DNA from: Aliiroseovarius halocynthiae
GTDB lineage: Bacteria; Pseudomonadota; Alphaproteobacteria; Rhodobacterales; Rhodobacteraceae
Direction of reading: 5' to 3'
Length of the DNA stretch: 64,000 nt
NCBI RefSeq assembly: GCF_007004645.1
Contig: NZ_ML660021.1
Span: 124,001-188,000 of the forward strand
Below, in pieces: positions 3,045 through 10,885 of the stretch. Position 1 is the first letter of the stretch. Each line of letters starts with the position of its first letter. Below the pieces are notes generated by a model. It worked only from the letters and a program-made list of their open reading frames with translations, had not been told where the DNA came from and ran no database searches. The position numbers and the translations under genes are program-made.

Positions 3045-3809
3045 CTATTTGTGTCTTTCTGCCCACAGGGTCATTGCTTGTGCCAGCCATTGGCTAAACC
3101 CCTCTGAAAGCGTTTCATAACGGGCGATAAAGTCAGGATGAGCCAGATAAAGTTCGGCCAACTTGGCATAGGCAGCAGCGGTGCAGGGGTATCCCCACAT
3201 CTCGGCTACCCAATTCTGATGGGCGGCCAGATTTGCCAATTTAGGGTCGCATCCCGCTTCGTAAGAGGTAACAAGCTCCGCCTCGATCCCTTTCAGTTGT
3301 TCATTCTGGGAGTTCAGAATGTCGCCCTTGCCGGCGCTTAGGTTTTCGCGTGATCTGGCGATCTCTGCGGCCATATCCTGACCGTATGTCGCAACCAGCC
3401 AGGCTTCGTAATCTGCCTGCTTTTCCTTGGGAAAAGGTTTGTAAAGGTCTTCGATTGTCATGGGGTCGTCTCCGTTCAGTTTTGCAATGGTCCGATCGAG
3501 CGTGGCAATGATCGCCGCTTGCTCGGACAAAGCCTTCGCAACCTTTTCGCGGTGCGAGGTCAGCCTTTCGACACGATTGCCAGTGCCCAAAAGTTCAGCG
3601 ATCTCGTTCAGAGGCATGTTTGCCGCGCGGTAGAATAGGATTTCCTGCAACCTGAGAAGTTCAGGCTGCCGATAAATCCGATACCCTTTGGCGGTCACAA
3701 AGGCCGGTTTGAGCAGTTCAAGCGAGTCATAGTGGTGCAGCATGCGAACAGTTACTCCCGCAGCCTGTGCCAACTCGCCAACGGTATATTCTTCGATTCG
3801 GTTTTCCAT
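3045..3809 (-). CDS. MerR-family transcriptional regulator with TipAS-like ligand domain
   Basis: A 254-residue regulator. Residues 7-75 form a MerR winged helix (YTVGELAQAAGVTVRMLHHY, then GYRIYRQPEL), followed by a dimerisation coiled coil near 75-110. The C-terminal ~140 residues have the helical TipAS character, rich in Trp, Tyr and Glu (NWVAEMWGYP near 200), which in TipA-type regulators binds thiopeptides and other hydrophobic ligands. GAGGGG just before ATG 3809 supports the start. A dyad TGAC-N11-GTCA at 3827-3845 lies just upstream and could be an autoregulatory operator. It is not clear which genes it controls; the adenylation/reductase operon next to it on the same strand is one option. 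Confidence 0.88.
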   Translation of the reverse strand: MENRIEEYTVGELAQAAGVTVRMLHHYDSLELLKPAFVTAKGYRIYRQPELLRLQEILFYRAANMPLNEIAELLGTGNRVERLTSHREKVAKALSEQAAIIATLDRTIAKLNGDDPMTIEDLYKPFPKEKQADYEAWLVATYGQDMAAEIARSRENLSAGKGDILNSQNEQLKGIEAELVTSYEAGCDPKLANLAAHQNWVAEMWGYPCTAAAYAKLAELYLAHPDFIARYETLSEGFSQWLAQAMTLWAERHK

Positions 3810-3865: not shown

Positions 3866-3958
3866 GCCCTCGATCACCATCACGTTCAAATTACCCGACC
3901 GGTCGAAGCGGATCGTTGTGACCCGCTTCAGAACCTTGGTTTCGATGGCTTTTGCGCG
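3866..3958 (-). other. In-frame coding-like tail after the stop of the membrane reductase gene
   Basis: Directly after the TGA of the gene at 3959-5275, the same frame stays open for 31 codons to a TAG. It reads as a plausible protein end (KVLKRVTTIRFDRSGN, then LNVMVIEG), with about three quarters of third positions G or C. There is no usual start codon in it. It may be the remnant of a lost downstream gene, a readthrough extension, or chance. Confidence 0.25.
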
Positions 3959-5275
3959 TCAGCTGTCCCAGATCGCGCCATAGGCGGGGATGCCAAGGCT
4001 TTCCATGTCATGCACAACCCTGCGCGTCAGTTTCTGGTTCGAGATCACGATCACCGCCTCGGCCCCGCTGTCACGCACCGCCTGCAGGGCAAGGGCAGAC
4101 AGGTTCGGTTTTCCGTCCGTATCCGTATCCCAGATCACCGGATTTTCGGTGCTGGCCTCAATCTCGTCCACGATTGCATCGCCATAGGTTGCCCGGGGGC
4201 TGCGTGTGGACCAGATCAGACGGTTTGGCACCATACCTTTCAGAAGGTGTGGCAGGATGGGGCCGATGCCAGACCCAGTACCCACATAGACGACGCTGGT
4301 GAACAGCTTTTCTATCCGAGCAACGCCCGATGTGGTGATCCCCTTCACCCACACATGGCTTGGCGGGTTGTCGATGAAATCTCCGGTCCAGTCGCCTGCA
4401 CGGCTGATTGCCAGACGGTATCCGGGCTTGCCGGGCGTAGGGATGTTGGCGAAGGAATGATACTGACCAAAGGGCGTATGTGACAGCGCGTTTGAACTGC
4501 CCGCGAAGGGCGTATCGCCATAATCAAATCCAGCAATCACCACGTGGTTCGAGGGTTTGTCGATCTCGACCTTCACGCGCTTCAGGGTCAGCCAAGGCGA
4601 CAGGATCGACAGGGTAATCAGCAGCAGCATCCAGAAGGCGGGGGTCTGTGTCAGCGTCCCCCCCATGTCATGGGTGATCGAGACTGTCTGTGCCCAAAAC
4701 AGCCCCAGCACAGTCCAACCGACAAAACGGTGTATGCCCTCAAACGTGTTGTGGAATTTCGCGCGGATCGGACCAATGGCAGAGATGATCATCAGAAACA
4801 TCAGACCAACCATAGTGGCGCTTAGCCCCAGCGTCAGATCAGACGGAAGCGCTGCGCCGCTAACGCGGTTCGCCACCATCGCGAACAACAGGAAGCCAAA
4901 CCAGATCGTGCCGGTCACGGTGCCGCCGGAATGTAGTCCACCAAAGTGAAAGACCTTGCCCGCGCCCCAGCGAATCCAAAGGGGCCAGCTGGTGGGAATG
5001 CGGGTCGCCAGCCAGAACAACGCATTCACCACGCGCTGCTGGCGGATCAGGATGCCAAGTGACAGGTTGATCAGCGCCATGTCGGCAATCGGGCCAAGCG
5101 TATAAGCCGTGCCGTCATGCCAGTATCCATCGCGCAGACCGATGCCAAAGACGGTCAGGTTGACCACTGCCACCAGAAAGGCCAATCGGCGATATTCCAT
5201 CAGGGCCGGGTGACGTGTGATGCGCCGCCAGCGTGGGGCGGCTGTTTCGATATTTACTGATTCAGTAGCCATCAT
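3959..5275 (-). CDS. Polytopic membrane oxidoreductase with ferredoxin-reductase-like C-terminal domain
   Basis: A 438-residue protein. The N-terminal ~240 residues hold about six hydrophobic helices with His residues inside or near them (for example VFHFGGLHSGG near 110 and NTFEGIHRFVG near 185), a layout like the membrane domain of ferric-reductase-type proteins. The soluble C-terminal ~190 residues resemble an NAD(P)-binding flavoprotein reductase module: VYVGTGSGIGP near 330, and a C-terminal end with an aromatic residue (AIWDS). Electron transfer across or at the membrane is the likely activity; the substrate is unknown. Its ATG overlaps the TGA of the adenylation gene, so the two are made together. 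Fungal membrane flavoproteins of the TmpA type may be relatives; that is recollection, not a search. Confidence 0.7.
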   Translation of the reverse strand: MMATESVNIETAAPRWRRITRHPALMEYRRLAFLVAVVNLTVFGIGLRDGYWHDGTAYTLGPIADMALINLSLGILIRQQRVVNALFWLATRIPTSWPLWIRWGAGKVFHFGGLHSGGTVTGTIWFGFLLFAMVANRVSGAALPSDLTLGLSATMVGLMFLMIISAIGPIRAKFHNTFEGIHRFVGWTVLGLFWAQTVSITHDMGGTLTQTPAFWMLLLITLSILSPWLTLKRVKVEIDKPSNHVVIAGFDYGDTPFAGSSNALSHTPFGQYHSFANIPTPGKPGYRLAISRAGDWTGDFIDNPPSHVWVKGITTSGVARIEKLFTSVVYVGTGSGIGPILPHLLKGMVPNRLIWSTRSPRATYGDAIVDEIEASTENPVIWDTDTDGKPNLSALALQAVRDSGAEAVIVISNQKLTRRVVHDMESLGIPAYGAIWDS

Positions 5276-6900
5276 TTCAGCTCCACACCACGGGTTTCAA
5301 CCTCGGCCTTGGCCATGTCCAAGAGCAGACGCTTGTCGATCTTGCCGCGTGCGGTGCGGGGCAGTTCGTCCAACGCCATCACAAGGGCGGGTTTGTTGTA
5401 ATAGGGCAGCCGATCCACGACCGATTGGGTCGCCAGTTCGGGATCGGCCGTCGCGGGCGCGATGAAGCTGACCAGATTGCGGTCGTCATATTTCAACGTC
5501 ACCGCCTGTTCGCAGCCCTCGGACATTTCCAGCGCTGAGGATACGCCGTCCAGCTCGACCCGGAAGCCGCAGATCTTGACCAGATCGTCGACGCGGCCGT
5601 GATGCAGAAGCTCTCCGTCATCGGTCCACGATCCCAGATCGCGGGTGTTGAACATTATGTGGCCGGGGCGGAACGGATCGGGGCGATAGCGTTCATCCGT
5701 CAGGTTCGGGTTCGCCAGATAGCCTGCGGTCACGCAGTCACCGCCCGCCCACATCGTGCCTTTCTCGCCAATTGGCAGCGGGGACAGATCTTCGTCCAGC
5801 ACATAAACGGTGTTGTTGGGGGTAGGGCGGCCGATGGACAGCTCGGCTTTGTGGGCGCTGTGCGGCTCGGCAGTGTTGATGATCGTCGTTTCGGTCGGCC
5901 CGCACGAGTTATAGAAGGTGCAGAATTGCGACCATGCATCGGCCAAGGGGCGCGGGCAGGGTTCACCCGCGACGGCGGCAGCCTTGATGTGCTGGCAGCC
6001 TTCGACGTCCAACGTGTTCAGGATCGAGGGCGTGCCAATCAGGATGTCCACCTTGGCCGCGGTTTCGGCAATCGATTTGCCACGGATAACCAAAGTGGCG
6101 CCGTTAGACAGGGCACCCAAAGTCTCCCACGCGGCCATATCAAAGGCGATGGACAGGATCTGCCCCACACGCAGACCCGGGCGCATGCCCAGATTGCCGG
6201 GGCGGGTTTGAAGGATGTTGCACAGGTTTCTGTGCGTCACCTGTACACCGTTCGGCACCCCGGTCGTGCCCGAAGTGAACAGCACCATGGCGCGGTCATC
6301 GGGTTGCAGCAGATAGTCCTTTCCTTGGGGCGCGATAGCCGGGCGGGATGTGTCGCTCATCACCTCGTCAATCGCAATCAGCACCTGATGATCCCGGTCA
6401 ACAGGCACGTCATCCGCCAGACGCGACAGGGTCAGCAGAACCTTAGCTTCGGTTTGTTTGGCGATGTATTTCAGACCCTCGATCGGCGCGACGCCCACAT
6501 GCTGCGGAGCATAGGCTGCGCCCACTTTCATGACCGCCAGTATACCGACGACCATCTCGATCGAGCGTTGCAGATACAGGCCGACCACTTGGCCACGCTT
6601 CACGCCCTGTTGGGCCAATAGGTTCGCCAACCGATCTGACGCCTGATCCAGCGCGCCATAGGTGATCGACGCGCCCTGATGTTCGGCAGCGGTCACGTCG
6701 GGTTGTAGGGCCGCATAATAGCTGAAGCCCTCTAATATGGTTGCGAAGCGGGGGGTGACGGATGGGCCCCATCCAAAGCGAAAGAAACGGTCGCGGTCAA
6801 AGGCCGAAAGCGCCTGCAAATCGAGTTGATTCGCAGCGCTTGGCGCAATGGAGTTCTGGCGAGGGGTATGGAGCTGGGTCTCGGATGCAAGGTCTTGCAT
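5272..6900 (-). CDS. Stand-alone NRPS-type adenylation (AMP-forming) enzyme
   Basis: A 542-residue member of the ANL superfamily without a carrier domain. Core motifs are visible: A3 LFTSGTTGVPNGV near 203 (the usual Lys is Asn), A4 AFDMAAWE, A5 NSCGPTETT, A7 TRDLG, A8 GRVDDLVKICGFRVEL and A10 ARGKIDK with its catalytic Lys near 518. The Asp in FDxxxWE is the residue that binds the alpha-amino group in NRPS adenylation domains, so an amino acid is a likelier substrate than a fatty acid. AAGGAGA lies 8 bases before ATG 6900. It overlaps the membrane reductase by four bases. An activated aminoacyl product handed to a membrane redox partner is an inference; an amino-acid-modifying or signal-making pathway is possible. 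Confidence 0.8.
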   Translation of the reverse strand: MQDLASETQLHTPRQNSIAPSAANQLDLQALSAFDRDRFFRFGWGPSVTPRFATILEGFSYYAALQPDVTAAEHQGASITYGALDQASDRLANLLAQQGVKRGQVVGLYLQRSIEMVVGILAVMKVGAAYAPQHVGVAPIEGLKYIAKQTEAKVLLTLSRLADDVPVDRDHQVLIAIDEVMSDTSRPAIAPQGKDYLLQPDDRAMVLFTSGTTGVPNGVQVTHRNLCNILQTRPGNLGMRPGLRVGQILSIAFDMAAWETLGALSNGATLVIRGKSIAETAAKVDILIGTPSILNTLDVEGCQHIKAAAVAGEPCPRPLADAWSQFCTFYNSCGPTETTIINTAEPHSAHKAELSIGRPTPNNTVYVLDEDLSPLPIGEKGTMWAGGDCVTAGYLANPNLTDERYRPDPFRPGHIMFNTRDLGSWTDDGELLHHGRVDDLVKICGFRVELDGVSSALEMSEGCEQAVTLKYDDRNLVSFIAPATADPELATQSVVDRLPYYNKPALVMALDELPRTARGKIDKRLLLDMAKAEVETRGVELK

Positions 6901-7057: not shown

Positions 7058-7873
7058 TTGAGCGAAAAAACGCCTGACATGTTTTCGGACGCGTTGTCTG
7101 ATCTGCTCGCACCACTTGCGCGGGCGATGGTTGCCCATGGTGTAACCGTTGGGGCGGTGACAGAATCAATGAAAGTGGCGCTTTTGAATGCGGCGATTGA
7201 GGCGCAGGGGGAAGACGTGTCGGACAGTCGGGTAAGTGTCATGACCGGATTGCATCGCAAGGATGTGCGCCGTCTGCGCTCGGACGCGCCGATGACGGAT
7301 GGACGCAAAACCGCAAACCGGCTGGCACTGCTGATTGGGCACTGGGCCACAGCGCCGGATTTTCTGGGGGAAAACGACCGCCCCCGCGCATTGCCGCGCG
7401 ATATATCTTCTGAAGGGCCGGGGTTTGACGATCTGGTGCGGCACGTGCGGTTGGATGCGGCCCCGGGAACGATGCGGCGGGCGCTGCTGGATCACGGTGC
7501 GGTTACAGAAGACGACGATGGCCGGCTGCACCTTGTCACCAATGCTTTGGTGCCCGGCGCCGGTTCGAAAGAGCTGGTCGCCGCATACCGTGCGACATTG
7601 ACGACCCATATGACGGCTGCAACTCAGAACCTTCTGGCCGCACCCACCGAAACCCGCCATTTCGACCGTGTCGTGAAATATTCTCACCTCAGCGATGGCT
7701 CGGTCGCCGAGCTTGAGGCATTGGCGCGTGCGGAATCGCAAGCATTGCTAGAACGCCTGAATGCCCGCGCGCGTGAGCTGCAAGATCGTGACGCGGATCA
7801 GGGGGTACATGGCCGTTTCGCTGCCGGGGCGTATGTGCTGCCTGAACAAGACACCAAGAAGGACACGGAATGA
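7058..7873 (+). CDS. DUF6502 family protein
   Basis: A 271-residue soluble protein of the DUF6502 type, function unknown. The N-terminal ~90 residues look like a helix-turn-helix region (VSVMTGLHRKDVRRLRS near 60-76), so a DNA-binding role is possible. The start is a TTG at 7058, chosen because GAGGGGAAAGGGA sits 8 bases upstream; the first internal ATG lacks such a site. Its last four bases overlap the DUF5666 gene, so the two are translationally coupled. It diverges from the adenylation operon across about 155 bases that must hold promoters for both. Confidence 0.82.
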   Translation: MSEKTPDMFSDALSDLLAPLARAMVAHGVTVGAVTESMKVALLNAAIEAQGEDVSDSRVSVMTGLHRKDVRRLRSDAPMTDGRKTANRLALLIGHWATAPDFLGENDRPRALPRDISSEGPGFDDLVRHVRLDAAPGTMRRALLDHGAVTEDDDGRLHLVTNALVPGAGSKELVAAYRATLTTHMTAATQNLLAAPTETRHFDRVVKYSHLSDGSVAELEALARAESQALLERLNARARELQDRDADQGVHGRFAAGAYVLPEQDTKKDTE

Positions 7874-8760
7874 GCTGGCTTCGAACATTTCTGTCTGCTG
7901 TCCTGATGCTGGCCGTGTCGACCGCGGCGATGGCGACGGAAGAGGACGAGCGTGAGGGTGGCATCCTTGGCACCGGCATTCTGGGCACGATTACCGCGCT
8001 GGGCTCAATCTATGTGAATGGTCAGCATATTCGCTTCGCGCCAGAGTTCGAGGTGACGGATGGCGTCACCGTCAGCACAGCGGCCCAATTGTTGCCCGGT
8101 CATACGGTCGCCGTGGTTGCTGCGCCTGACGGTGCGGGCTGGCAAGCATCTTATATTCGTCAGATCACCCCGCTTGTTGGCCCGGTACAGAGCATTTCGG
8201 ATGGTCAATTCGACGTGTTGGGCACAACGATCCAGGCCGAGCCCAAGCTGATCGCAGGGTTGGGGCAGGGTGATATGGTTGCCATCAGCGGGTTGTGGCA
8301 GGAAGGGCAGGTCATAGCCTCGCGCATTGATCGGGTTGCCAATGACAGTCCCGCCCGGATCGAGGGCAGCGTCTTTGACGTCACGCCCGGTCAGCCACTG
8401 ACCATTGGCGGGACAGAGATCACAGGGCTGTGGCCCACCCATATTCAGGATGGTCATGTTGTGCGGGTGGTTGGTTCGGCGAACGAAACGGGCATTCAGG
8501 TACAAAGCCTCGAGACCGGCGTGTTCGCTGCGACACCTCAGGTCATTCTGTCCGAGGGGTATTTCTCGGTCCCCACGGTGTCTGGGCTGTATACGCTGTT
8601 GGGGTCGGACCTTTTGTCCTATACGGATCAGCCGGGCATGATTGACCCCGTGGTGCGTCAACTGGTGTGCAGCCGTGATGGACAAATGTATCCGGTTCAG
8701 ATCGATGACAGTACGCTGCCATCTGACATGTCCGCATGTTTTGCCCCGCCCACACAATAG
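7870..8760 (+). CDS. Exported DUF5666 domain protein
   Basis: A 296-residue protein with an N-terminal signal peptide (LSAVLMLAVSTAAMA, cleavage near residue 24), so it acts in the periplasm. The rest is repeated short beta-rich modules of the DUF5666 kind, each with a G-x-I-x-x-I/V pattern (LGTITALGSIYVNG, GPVQSISDGQFDVLG, RIEGSVFDVTPG). DUF5666 modules look like small OB-fold units; the function is unknown. The stop overlap with DUF6502 suggests one transcript and a shared process. No metal or catalytic motif was seen; the single Cys pair near the C-terminus could form a disulfide. Confidence 0.8.
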   Translation: MSWLRTFLSAVLMLAVSTAAMATEEDEREGGILGTGILGTITALGSIYVNGQHIRFAPEFEVTDGVTVSTAAQLLPGHTVAVVAAPDGAGWQASYIRQITPLVGPVQSISDGQFDVLGTTIQAEPKLIAGLGQGDMVAISGLWQEGQVIASRIDRVANDSPARIEGSVFDVTPGQPLTIGGTEITGLWPTHIQDGHVVRVVGSANETGIQVQSLETGVFAATPQVILSEGYFSVPTVSGLYTLLGSDLLSYTDQPGMIDPVVRQLVCSRDGQMYPVQIDDSTLPSDMSACFAPPTQ

Positions 8761-8881: not shown

Positions 8882-10885
8882 ATGGCGTTGTCTTTGGGTG
8901 TAGATACGGGTGGAACCTATACCGACGCGGTGTTGATCCGTGACGAGACCGACGTCATTGCCAGCGCCAAATCCCTGACCACACGCACGGATCTTGCCAT
9001 TGGCATGGGCAAGGCCATTCAGGCGGTGCTGGAAAGTGCCGATGTTGCGCCTGCCGAGATTTCGATGGCGTCCCTCTCCACCACGCTTGCCACGAACGCC
9101 TTGGTCGAAGGTCAGGGCGGGCGTGTCGCGCTTATATATATTGGCTTTCGCGAAAGTGACCTTGAAAAACACGGGCTGCGGGACGCTTTGAAGGGCGACC
9201 CTGCCTTGGTGATTGCTGGCGGGCATAGCCATTCAGGCACTGAAGCGGCCAAGCTGGATCTTGACGCGCTTCATGCGTTTCTTACCGAGCATCACGGCAT
9301 TTCAGGTTTTGCGGTCGCCGCGCAATTCGCCACCCGCAACCCGGCGCATGAACTGGCTGTGGCGCAGGCCATTGCCGATGTGACGGGCGCGCCGGTCACT
9401 TGCTCGCACCAACTGTCGTCCAAGCTGAACGGGCCAAAACGGGCTGTGACGGCGGTTTTGAATGCACGTCTGATCGGAATGATTGACCGGTTGATTGGTC
9501 GCGCGCAGGATACGCTTCGGAATATCGGGATCGAGGCGCCGATGATGGTTGTGCGGGGGGATGGCGCATTGATGAGCGCCGAGCAAGCGCGCGACCGCCC
9601 GATTGAAACCATTCTCAGTGGCCCAGCTGCCTCGATCGTTGGTGCGCGCTGGTTGACCAATGCCGAGAACGCGCTGGTCTCGGATATTGGCGGGACCACG
9701 ACCGATATCGCTTTGATCCGTGATGGAAAGCCGATGATTGACCCCGCCGGGGCGCAGGTTGGCGGCTTTCGTACCATGGTCGAGGCCGTCGCCATGCGCA
9801 CCCACGGTCTGGGTGGCGATAGTCAGGTGCATCCCGTTGCAGAAGGTTTGCAAGGTGGCGTCTTTCTGGGGCCGCGCCGGGTGCTTCCGGTGTCACTGAT
9901 CGCGGCCGAGGCCCCAGATGCGGTGCATGCTGCGCTGGACGAGCAATTGCGGGCCAGTGCTCCGGGCGAGCATGACGCGCGGTTTGCGCGCCGGGTTCTG
10001 GGCGTCCCAACCGAAGGGGTTGATGCACGGGCCGAAACCATTCTTGAACGTCTTGGCGACGACATTATGCCCTTGAACATGTTGCTCAGAACCCGGTTAG
10101 AGGGCAGCGCGCTGACACGGTTGGTTGATCGTGGCATCGTGCAGGTGTCGGGCGTGACGCCTTCGGATGCCAGCCATGTTCTGGGCCGTCTGGATGCGTG
10201 GGATGCCGAGGCTGCCCGCAAAGGGCTGACGCTGTTTTCGCGTAAGCGTGTCGGCAGCGGCGACCGACTGGCGACCTCGCCTGAAGACATGGCGCAGAAA
10301 ATCATTGACCAGATGACCGAACAAACGGCGCTGACCCTGTTGGAAACCGCTTTCGCCGAAGAGCAGGAGGATTTCGGCCTGCCGCCCGAGGTGCTGGCGC
10401 GCCATGTTCTAACCCGTTGCGGACTGGCGGGTCACCGTGGGTTGTTGGCATTGGATGCAGCGCTGAATGTTCAGATTGTCGGACTGGGCGCTTCGGCACC
10501 ATCTTACTATCCGGCGGTCGGTGAACGGCTGCACTGCAAGATGCAGCTGCCCGAACATGCTGGCGTTGCGAACGCTGTCGGGGCTGTCGTCGGACGCGTC
10601 ACCTTCCGCCGTTCGGGTACCGTCACCACCCCTGCCGAGGGAAAATACCGCGTTCACATGACGACCGGCCCGCAGGATTTCATGGACGCAGAGCAGGCCA
10701 TGGTCGCAATGGAGGACTATCTGCGCGCGGATGCTCAAACTGCTGCAAAGGATGCTGGTGCAGAAGATATCCGTGTGATCGTCAATCGCGATATCCGCTC
10801 GGCTCAGATCGAGGGCCAGAACGTGTTTGTCGAGTGCACCGTAATGGTCGAAGCCAGCGGCAGACCCCGCGTCGCTTTGGGGTAA
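8882..10885 (+). CDS. Hydantoinase/oxoprolinase family protein (HyuA-like), solitary
   Basis: A 667-residue cytoplasmic protein of the HyuA/oxoprolinase family, ATP-dependent amidohydrolases acting on cyclic amides such as hydantoins or 5-oxoproline. The ASKHA-type phosphate-binding motifs are present: GVDTGGTYTDAVL at residues 5-17 and SDIGGTTTDIALI near 264-276. HyuA normally works with a HyuB subunit; none is next to it here, so it may pair with a protein coded elsewhere or have another role. GGAAG precedes ATG 8882. A TTGACA at 8820 and a GC-rich dyad near 8835-8860 lie in the upstream gap; either could be part of its promoter. Confidence 0.85.
   Translation: MALSLGVDTGGTYTDAVLIRDETDVIASAKSLTTRTDLAIGMGKAIQAVLESADVAPAEISMASLSTTLATNALVEGQGGRVALIYIGFRESDLEKHGLRDALKGDPALVIAGGHSHSGTEAAKLDLDALHAFLTEHHGISGFAVAAQFATRNPAHELAVAQAIADVTGAPVTCSHQLSSKLNGPKRAVTAVLNARLIGMIDRLIGRAQDTLRNIGIEAPMMVVRGDGALMSAEQARDRPIETILSGPAASIVGARWLTNAENALVSDIGGTTTDIALIRDGKPMIDPAGAQVGGFRTMVEAVAMRTHGLGGDSQVHPVAEGLQGGVFLGPRRVLPVSLIAAEAPDAVHAALDEQLRASAPGEHDARFARRVLGVPTEGVDARAETILERLGDDIMPLNMLLRTRLEGSALTRLVDRGIVQVSGVTPSDASHVLGRLDAWDAEAARKGLTLFSRKRVGSGDRLATSPEDMAQKIIDQMTEQTALTLLETAFAEEQEDFGLPPEVLARHVLTRCGLAGHRGLLALDAALNVQIVGLGASAPSYYPAVGERLHCKMQLPEHAGVANAVGAVVGRVTFRRSGTVTTPAEGKYRVHMTTGPQDFMDAEQAMVAMEDYLRADAQTAAKDAGAEDIRVIVNRDIRSAQIEGQNVFVECTVMVEASGRPRVALG

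Follow-up and report, generated by a model that had tools for sequence, protein, structure and literature searches.

A split, operon-borne bacterial variant of the fungal TmpB/TmpL kind is predicted in Aliiroseovarius halocynthiae

What does a lone amino acid-activating domain do when its gene runs into that of a membrane reductase? The question is raised by a 64,000-nucleotide stretch of the Aliiroseovarius halocynthiae genome (assembly GCF_007004645.1, contig NZ_ML660021.1, positions 124,001 to 188,000; hereafter the window). It carries two overlapping genes, here called A and M, of which A encodes an adenylation domain of the nonribosomal peptide synthetase (NRPS) type and M a membrane flavoprotein. 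The initial annotation, made from the letters of the window, had described a stand-alone adenylation domain with the amino acid-binding Asp of the motif FDMAAWE, overlapping by four bases a polytopic membrane protein with an FNR-like tail, and it had pointed to a tie to fungal membrane flavoproteins. That tie is borne out by the literature on TmpB, TmpL and ChNPS12, which is cited here from excerpts of the respective papers. On balance, we regard the locus as new, namely as a split, operon-borne bacterial variant of the TmpB/TmpL kind. No bacterial A-M or A-M-hydratase operon is described in the titles and opening abstracts of the open literature searched, from which subscription papers mostly fall outside. 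Our preferred reading, held with modest confidence, is that A and M constitute a bacterial two-gene TmpB/TmpL (ChNPS12-type) enzyme, the reduced remnant of an A-M-hydratase operon, and that this enzyme makes an amino acid-derived compound.

The linkage of the two genes was analyzed in a collection of species genomes that was scanned with M alone. Among the 74 stretches that matched, 59 encode a relative of M. In 58 of these 59 loci, A lies directly upstream of M in the same orientation, with Kribbella L055 as the lone exception. As the loci were fetched by M alone, we conclude that the A-M pairing is not due to chance. The possibility that the genes are unlinked in other genomes, named at the outset as the outcome that would speak against the pair, has thereby been answered. 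The four-base overlap proved real as well, the A stop and the M start sharing the letters ATGA, and an overlap of this length, judged by the alignment start, occurs in 36 of the 58 pairs. A and M form a single frame of 1027 aa in L051, a Saprospiraceae metagenome-assembled genome, which is the sole natural fusion; in L037 the M frame is split. By record title, the 59 loci fall into six phyla: 50 belong to Pseudomonadota and five to Actinomycetota, whereas Bacteroidota, Chloroflexota, Bdellovibrionota and Calditrichota have one each. The pairwise distances of A were correlated with those of M; r was 0.93 for 53 loci (1378 pairs) and 0.84 for a chosen subset of 12 loci (66 pairs), both values being uncorrected for shared species ancestry.

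The A product matched PF00501 with an E-value of 1.2e-67 in the Pfam scan and reached 309.7 bits with TIGR01733 (amino acid adenylation), slightly below the curated cut-off of 317.4. Amino acid adenylation was the best-scoring model type, acyl-coenzyme A (CoA) ligase models scored lower, and the best solved relatives are the gramicidin and tyrocidine synthetases. When the numbering of PheA was fixed with a PheA segment identical to 1AMU, Asp254 in the FDMAAWE motif fell on PheA Asp235, a residue established for NRPS as the mark of an alpha-amino acid and described as such in PMC4804170. Together with the two family matches, this position upholds the assignment as a stand-alone NRPS-type domain. 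For the family as a whole, we used an alignment of 55 A rows, consisting of the window, L002 (whose stretch is identical to that of the same-genus locus L003) and 53 of the 59 loci. Left out were L026, L028, L045 and L052, in which the A frame is split, L043, in which it is cut by the contig end, and L055, which has no A. All 55 rows have Asn instead of the A3 lysine, which is present in the second adenylation domain of LgrA, a gramicidin synthase.

Mapped on PheA, the ten-residue pocket code of the window protein is DMWIAASIIK. The identical code was found in 45 of the 55 rows, the others varying only at PheA positions 299, 322 or 331, so that the family consensus, DMWIAA[S/A/C]I[I/V]K, is nearly constant. 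The residues D235, W239, I330 and K517 (PheA numbering) are invariant in all 55 rows, which argues for an amino acid as the substrate of A, the alternative named at the outset being fatty acids only. Because the pocket is nearly frozen, a single amino acid is probably common to all members of the family. Apart from Asp235, the pocket is mostly hydrophobic and of middling size, and the substrate would thus be an alpha-amino acid whose side chain is hydrophobic and small to medium in size.

The M protein was less readily classified. At E<=0.01, it had no Pfam or NCBIfam match; its score against Ferric_reduct was 10.2 bits (E 0.79; cut-off 28). Among 46 M members, 27 gave Pfam matches at E<=1, the best with E 0.0011, and the curated cut-offs of PF01794, PF08022 and PF08030 were not reached. 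A search of the PDB with the single sequence yielded no match, and the M profile gave weak matches only (DUOX1, E 0.06; NOX2, E 0.19). An AlphaFold2 model computed from the window protein and those of 41 of the 59 loci (42 sequences) had a mean predicted local distance difference test score of 87 and a predicted template modeling score of 0.83, and it displays six long helices in the membrane region followed by a flavin adenine dinucleotide (FAD)/NAD domain. The top Foldseek match of this model was a pneumococcal NADPH oxidase, with E 7.5e-12. A second structural aligner superimposed 367 residues on SpNOX (Z 22.5, 4.8 A, 14% identity) and 401 residues on NOX2 (Z 22.2, 3.8 A, 13% identity). According to the model, the NADPH-oxidase fold spans the whole length of M. 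Thus, the polytopic membrane part of the initial annotation stands, whereas its FNR-like tail is one part of a complete NADPH-oxidase fold that had been missed. Flavin binding by M is predicted from its motifs and fold; the H-x-F motif of the FAD site aligns with NOX2 and DUOX1.

Proteins of the two-heme type carry two His pairs, each spaced by about 13-14 residues, in transmembrane helices (TM) 3 and 5. In M, the conserved His pairs are spaced by 5 and 7 residues. His110, His115 and His175 are invariant in 59 M rows (the window, L002 and 57 of the 59 loci), and His182 is present in 58 of them. In the set of 46 rows that includes four plasmid-borne relatives, His110 is conserved in 43, His115 and His175 in all 46, and His182 in 45; the exceptions are three cyanobacterial rows for His110 and the Bacteriovoracaceae locus L056 for His182. 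An hhalign comparison of the M profile with two ferric-reductase-family proteins (E 3.6e-5, probability 71%) placed His115 and His182 on His residues that have a second His 13-14 residues further on in those proteins; we read the two positions as the inner heme site. The 13-14-residue spacing is present in L080 and L100. The window protein has no His 13-14 residues past any of its four conserved His residues and thus departs from the two-heme pattern of the NADPH oxidase/ferric reductase superfamily. The usual second, outward heme is therefore unlikely, and the window M, like most members of the family, would bind no more than one heme, located on the cytoplasmic side. Among the relatives, 10 of 46 rows (L040, L041, L043, L047, L052, L054, L058 and L063-L065) carry a His at the position that corresponds to residue 196 of the window protein, 14 residues past His182, where a second heme ligand might lie, so that a second heme is conceivable in these ten, including the cyanobacterial ones, L054 and L058. 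The residues listed 13-14 positions past His115, which cover 44 and 45 of the 46 rows, include no His.

The oxidase-like fold of M raises the option that the protein is chiefly an oxidase, or a metal or quinone reductase, which tunes the redox state, with A just supplying or sensing aminoacyl-AMP. The TmpL mutants, with their raised level of reactive oxygen species and their peroxide sensitivity (PMC2766074), would fit such a role. The A. nidulans tmpB mutants, however, are reported not to be peroxide-sensitive (PMC4804170), the outward heme is unlikely for want of the His residues in TM3 or TM5, and the hydratase described below would be left unexplained. We consider redox tuning the least probable of the alternatives weighed here.

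Clustering of the neighboring open reading frames (ORFs) revealed an enoyl-CoA hydratase gene directly 3' of M. The pair recognized initially is therefore real but incomplete, since this third gene and its scrap in the window had been overlooked. In a directed count among the 59 loci, the hydratase was detected downstream of M in 49 of the 57 that could be assessed, L038 and L050 ending too early. It was not found in L003, L011, L022, L029 (which has just 757 nt past M), L033, L045, L052 and L055; in L034 and L049 it is cut by the contig end, and L028 and L044 gave a partial one-frame match. The gap between M and the extrapolated hydratase start is 1-5 bp in 29 of the 49 loci and extends up to 419 bp (L051). 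The gene is present in eight of the nine loci that do not belong to Pseudomonadota, and also in two further loci of the actinomycete sample, L070 and L071. Six hydratases were tested against family models; the best was PRK05862 in four and PRK05809 in two (L051 and L056), and none reached the curated cut-off among the matches listed. The closest solved structure to the operon hydratase is EchA8. The presence of two subfamilies at one place suggests that the hydratase activity was recruited more than once, and such repeated recruitment would be stronger evidence of a needed activity than synteny alone.

In the window, the hydratase is reduced to a remnant. The Shimia operon hydratase, used as a tblastn query, had its best match right after M, where 23 residues align with 57% identity; the E-value was 0.009 for the whole 64-kb window and 1e-6 when the search was confined to the 153 nt that follow M. 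Elsewhere in the genome, the top-matching hydratase shares only 48% identity with the Shimia copy. Aliiroseovarius sp. Z3 (L003) has a scrap in the corresponding position, recovered as two short matches. From this shared position, we conclude that the ancestor of both copies most likely had an A-M-hydratase operon, from which the hydratase then decayed.

A ligase-type enzyme, a redox enzyme and a hydratase in one operon may also call to mind a catabolic route resembling beta-oxidation, in which A would be an acyl-CoA ligase for an odd acid and M the dehydrogenase, with the hydratase acting as in fatty-acid oxidation. The likeness of the cassette hydratase to housekeeping short-chain hydratases agrees with this, as does a short-chain dehydrogenase family that recurs near five loci. 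On the other hand, all 55 A rows have the alpha-amino-acid pocket residues, and A scores best on amino acid adenylation and not on acyl-CoA ligase models. Moreover, neither a thiolase nor an acyl-CoA dehydrogenase was present among ten representatives (seven with Pfam matches) of the recurrent neighbor clusters, i.e. those of at least five loci. A catabolic function thus appears improbable to us.

As initially noted, carrier (PF00550), condensation (PF00668) and thioester reductase (PF07993) domains are absent from the window, and the A-M pair therefore lacks the carrier and condensation domains of an NRPS. The genome as a whole has three PF00550 matches, on contigs C1 and C2 and none on C3, the contig of the window; it has no PF00668 match, and five PF07993 matches, none of which lies inside C3:124001-188000. 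Only one long ORF encodes a carrier domain (942 aa, contig C2), and the best PF07993 match lies in it as well. Two short ORFs of 80 and 97 aa with carrier domains would suit a scheme in which A loads a carrier encoded elsewhere, e.g. the acyl carrier protein of fatty-acid synthesis, and M tailors the carrier-bound amino acid; stand-alone adenylation domains can indeed act in trans (PMC2823734). In eight genomes with a known place of the cassette, however, a carrier was missing from the contig of the cassette in seven; in the eighth, G350, the nearest one lay at a distance of about 25 kb. No carrier domain was found fused in the natural A-M fusion of L051, and TmpL is reported without one in the excerpted text of PMC2766074. 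Hence we judge loading in trans to be as improbable as the catabolic route.

The distribution of M is patchy. The gene is held by 2 of 21 genomes examined of the genus, including that of the window, and by 11 of 292 in a sample of the order, where two of the 11 copies have an internal stop, one of them being a 45-residue remnant. With the respective center genomes counted, M occurs in 3 of 296 genomes of the actinomycete phylum, 1 of 369 of the gammaproteobacterial class and 2 of 201 of the Chloroflexota. In Halomonas L052, A is in pieces and M largely whole, and M sits within the alphaproteobacterial group of a 42-row tree, a pattern that fits transfer and decay. L026, L028 and L045 likewise have A in pieces while M is largely whole. 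Spread by plasmids was considered as a cause of the patchiness. A tblastn search of PLSDB with M matched five records, and no A-like ORF was present in the stretches examined of four of them, the fifth being a second Pantoea plasmid. Given so few records and no A beside M in them, known plasmids do not explain the distribution.

Relatives of M do occur apart from A. In Kribbella L055 (4557-7296), M directly follows a major facilitator superfamily (MFS) transporter gene, and no A of this kind was detected genome-wide at E 1e-60. The Pantoea piersonii plasmid L062 (3814-7272) encodes a relative with 45% identity, again directly after an MFS transporter gene, and no A of this kind in the whole plasmid record. 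Three cyanobacterial plasmids harbor distant relatives with 27-28% identity (L063, 6962-9713; L064, 6959-9674; L065, 6475-9078), each followed by another gene, which in L063 and L064 encodes an HlyD-type membrane-fusion protein; L065 was outside that scan. At E 1e-3, none of the five stretches (L055, L062 and L063-L065) contained an A-like ORF.

Combining these results, we propose the following route for the preferred two-gene TmpB/TmpL-type enzyme. A, whose catalytic and pocket residues are observed, would adenylate one alpha-amino acid and, having no carrier of its own, use CoA or another thiol as the acceptor of the acyl group. M would reside in the cytoplasmic membrane, conduct electrons from NAD(P)H via FAD to no more than one heme close to the cytoplasmic side, and oxidize or reduce the activated amino acid or a product derived from it. 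The hydratase would contribute to this route by acting on an alpha,beta-unsaturated acyl thioester; in the window, a housekeeping hydratase may substitute, or the route may stop earlier. The output would be a small amino acid-derived compound, as proposed for TmpB. That it is a reduced or modified amino acid serving as a signal, as first suggested, is a guess.

Several points weigh against this proposal. M is below every Pfam cut-off, and the relatives without A indicate that M can work with other partners. The assignment of a single heme has exceptions, namely the His196 residues in 10 of 46 rows and L056 without His182. Eight of the 57 assessable loci have no hydratase or a decayed one, and some others have only part of it, so that the enzyme is not always needed. 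The genes are split instead of fused. Substrate, cofactor and product of the cassette are predicted, and the homology to TmpB/TmpL is drawn from published features of the fungal proteins. Finally, compared with PheA, the stretch from Asp235 to Gly324 is nine residues shorter in the bacterial A and eighteen shorter in TmpB (published numbering).

The features of the locus and its surroundings are compiled in Table 1. Upstream of A and divergent to it lie genes for DUF6502 and DUF5666 proteins, each of which recurs in 41 of the 63 other loci examined, all alphaproteobacterial by title. The DUF6502 model includes two short helices (residues 56-63 and 67-75), which we read as a segment that could be a helix-turn-helix, and the protein is a possible regulator. 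A match to a known regulator was not obtained: no fold match fell below E 0.001, the first ones being HetR chains at a non-significant E of 0.025, and the literature search returned no paper on DUF6502. A hydantoinase A-type protein gene lies near this conserved pair and outside the cassette. On the other side, just downstream of the hydratase scrap, is a gene for a MerR-type regulator with a TipAS antibiotic-recognition domain; we discarded it as a cassette member, as it was found only in L001, i.e. the window itself, among the loci fetched.

Table 1. Positions of the A-M locus and adjacent features in the window
Feature	Positions	Strand	Basis or remark
Gene A, NRPS-type adenylation domain without carrier, 542 aa	5272..6900	-	ORF and PF00501
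A3 motif FTSGTTGVPNGV, A residues 208-219	6244..6279	-	Asn217 at the Lys place of the second adenylation domain of LgrA
FDMAAWE, A residues 253-259	6124..6144	-	Asp254 = PheA D235, Trp258 = PheA W239
ATGA overlap of A stop and M start, 4 bp	5272..5275	-	ORF coordinates
Gene M, six-helix membrane flavoprotein, predicted NADPH-oxidase/ferric-reductase fold, 438 aa	3959..5275	-	ORF and model
Membrane part of M, residues 27-229, conserved His110, His115, His175, His182	4589..5197	-	Alignment and model
FAD/NAD(P)-binding part of M, residues 232-438, GTGSGIGP at 332-339	3962..4582	-	Alignment and model
Scrap of decayed enoyl-CoA hydratase, about 23 codons of the N-terminal part, remainder unrecognizable	3878..3946	-	tblastn
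MerR-type regulator with TipAS domain	3045..3809	-	Pfam
DUF6502 gene, divergent to A	7058..7873	+	Pfam, neighbor clustering and model
DUF5666 gene, downstream of DUF6502	7870..8760	+	Pfam and neighbor clustering
Hydantoinase A-type protein gene	8882..10885	+	

In fungi, sporulation, redox balance and virulence are shaped by TmpB and TmpL, whose chemistry is still little understood. The compact, split bacterial form, with its frozen pocket, separate A and conserved hydratase, makes this chemistry testable in vitro and by knockouts, so that a puzzling fungal system could become tractable in bacteria that are easy to grow. The bacterial form is also relevant to the question of a bacterial origin of the fungal family. 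For genome mining, the locus illustrates that calls of a stand-alone adenylation domain in bacteria can conceal a membrane redox partner that Pfam leaves unscored. A bolder proposal is that A, M and the hydratase represent an ancient pathway of activation, change of redox state and hydration, organized as an operon in bacteria and as a fusion with a linked hydratase gene in fungi, and yielding the same small amino acid-derived signal in six bacterial phyla and in filamentous fungi, where it would control sporulation. We regard this as doubtful, albeit less so than any of the alternatives discussed above.

Among known systems, TmpB of A. nidulans (AN9129), which combines an adenylation domain with a TmpA-like oxidoreductase in 989 aa (PMC4804170), offers a close comparison by published features. 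Its key residues D238, W242, G309, I315 and K495 correspond to D254, W258, G334, I340 and K520 of the window A, and the D-W, G-I and G-K spacings, taken for TmpB from the published numbering, are 4, 6 and 186 residues in both proteins. The D-to-G stretch differs, with 80 residues in A and 71 in TmpB. The pocket position of TmpB C307, described as oriented like PheA A322 (PMC4804170), is taken by S, A or C in the bacterial proteins, with C in Streptomyces L054. Like the bacterial cassette, TmpB unites a membrane oxidoreductase half with an adjoining enoyl-CoA hydratase/isomerase gene, which is conserved in several Aspergilli (PMC4804170). TmpB is, however, one chain, whereas the window has two genes (542 and 438 aa) and a decayed hydratase.

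TmpL of Alternaria brassicicola and Aspergillus fumigatus shares with the A-M pair the AMP-binding domain, six TM helices, an FAD/NAD(P) domain with GSGIGP and, according to the excerpted text, the absence of thiolation and condensation domains; the recombinant FAD/NAD(P) part binds flavin (PMC2766074). TmpL is fused and tied to fungal redox homeostasis and virulence, whereas the window pair is split. TmpL orthologues are said in the same excerpt to occur solely in filamentous fungi (PMC2766074), a statement that the bacterial loci, judged from their sequences, contradict at the level of architecture. ChNPS12 consists of an adenylation domain and a ferric-reductase-like domain, and single adenylation domains of Hahella and Salinispora nest in its clade (Bushley and Turgeon 2010; PMC2823734). 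These are termed stand-alone, as is the window A, and the excerpted text mentions neither a neighboring membrane gene nor a hydratase. Similar fungal proteins of the NPS12/TmpL type are noted in PMC4890743 and PMC5118889, and nothing relevant to the locus was found in the excerpted text of PMC5561558.

SpNOX, NOX2 and the ferric reductase superfamily share with M the whole-length fold and the H-x-F motif, whereas M has fewer heme-site His residues and is only 13-14% identical to SpNOX and NOX2. In the TmpA-AfeA system of A. nidulans, an M-type oxidoreductase gene is contiguous with a separate gene for an adenylate-forming enzyme, much like A and M, and the separate oxidoreductase is echoed by the M loci without A; AfeA, however, is a 4CL-like ligase and not an NRPS-type domain. 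The features of the TmpB/TmpL family that we recovered are an adenylation domain with an alpha-amino-acid pocket, an adjoining six-TM FAD/NAD(P) half and the absence of thiolation and condensation domains; the single fused polypeptide is confined to L051. The window pair is thus to be viewed as a split variant working like the TmpB/TmpL family and not as a plain member. Since architecture, pocket residues and hydratase neighbor all match the published descriptions, we conclude that the A-M pair most likely represents the TmpB/TmpL (ChNPS12) family in a split, bacterial form.

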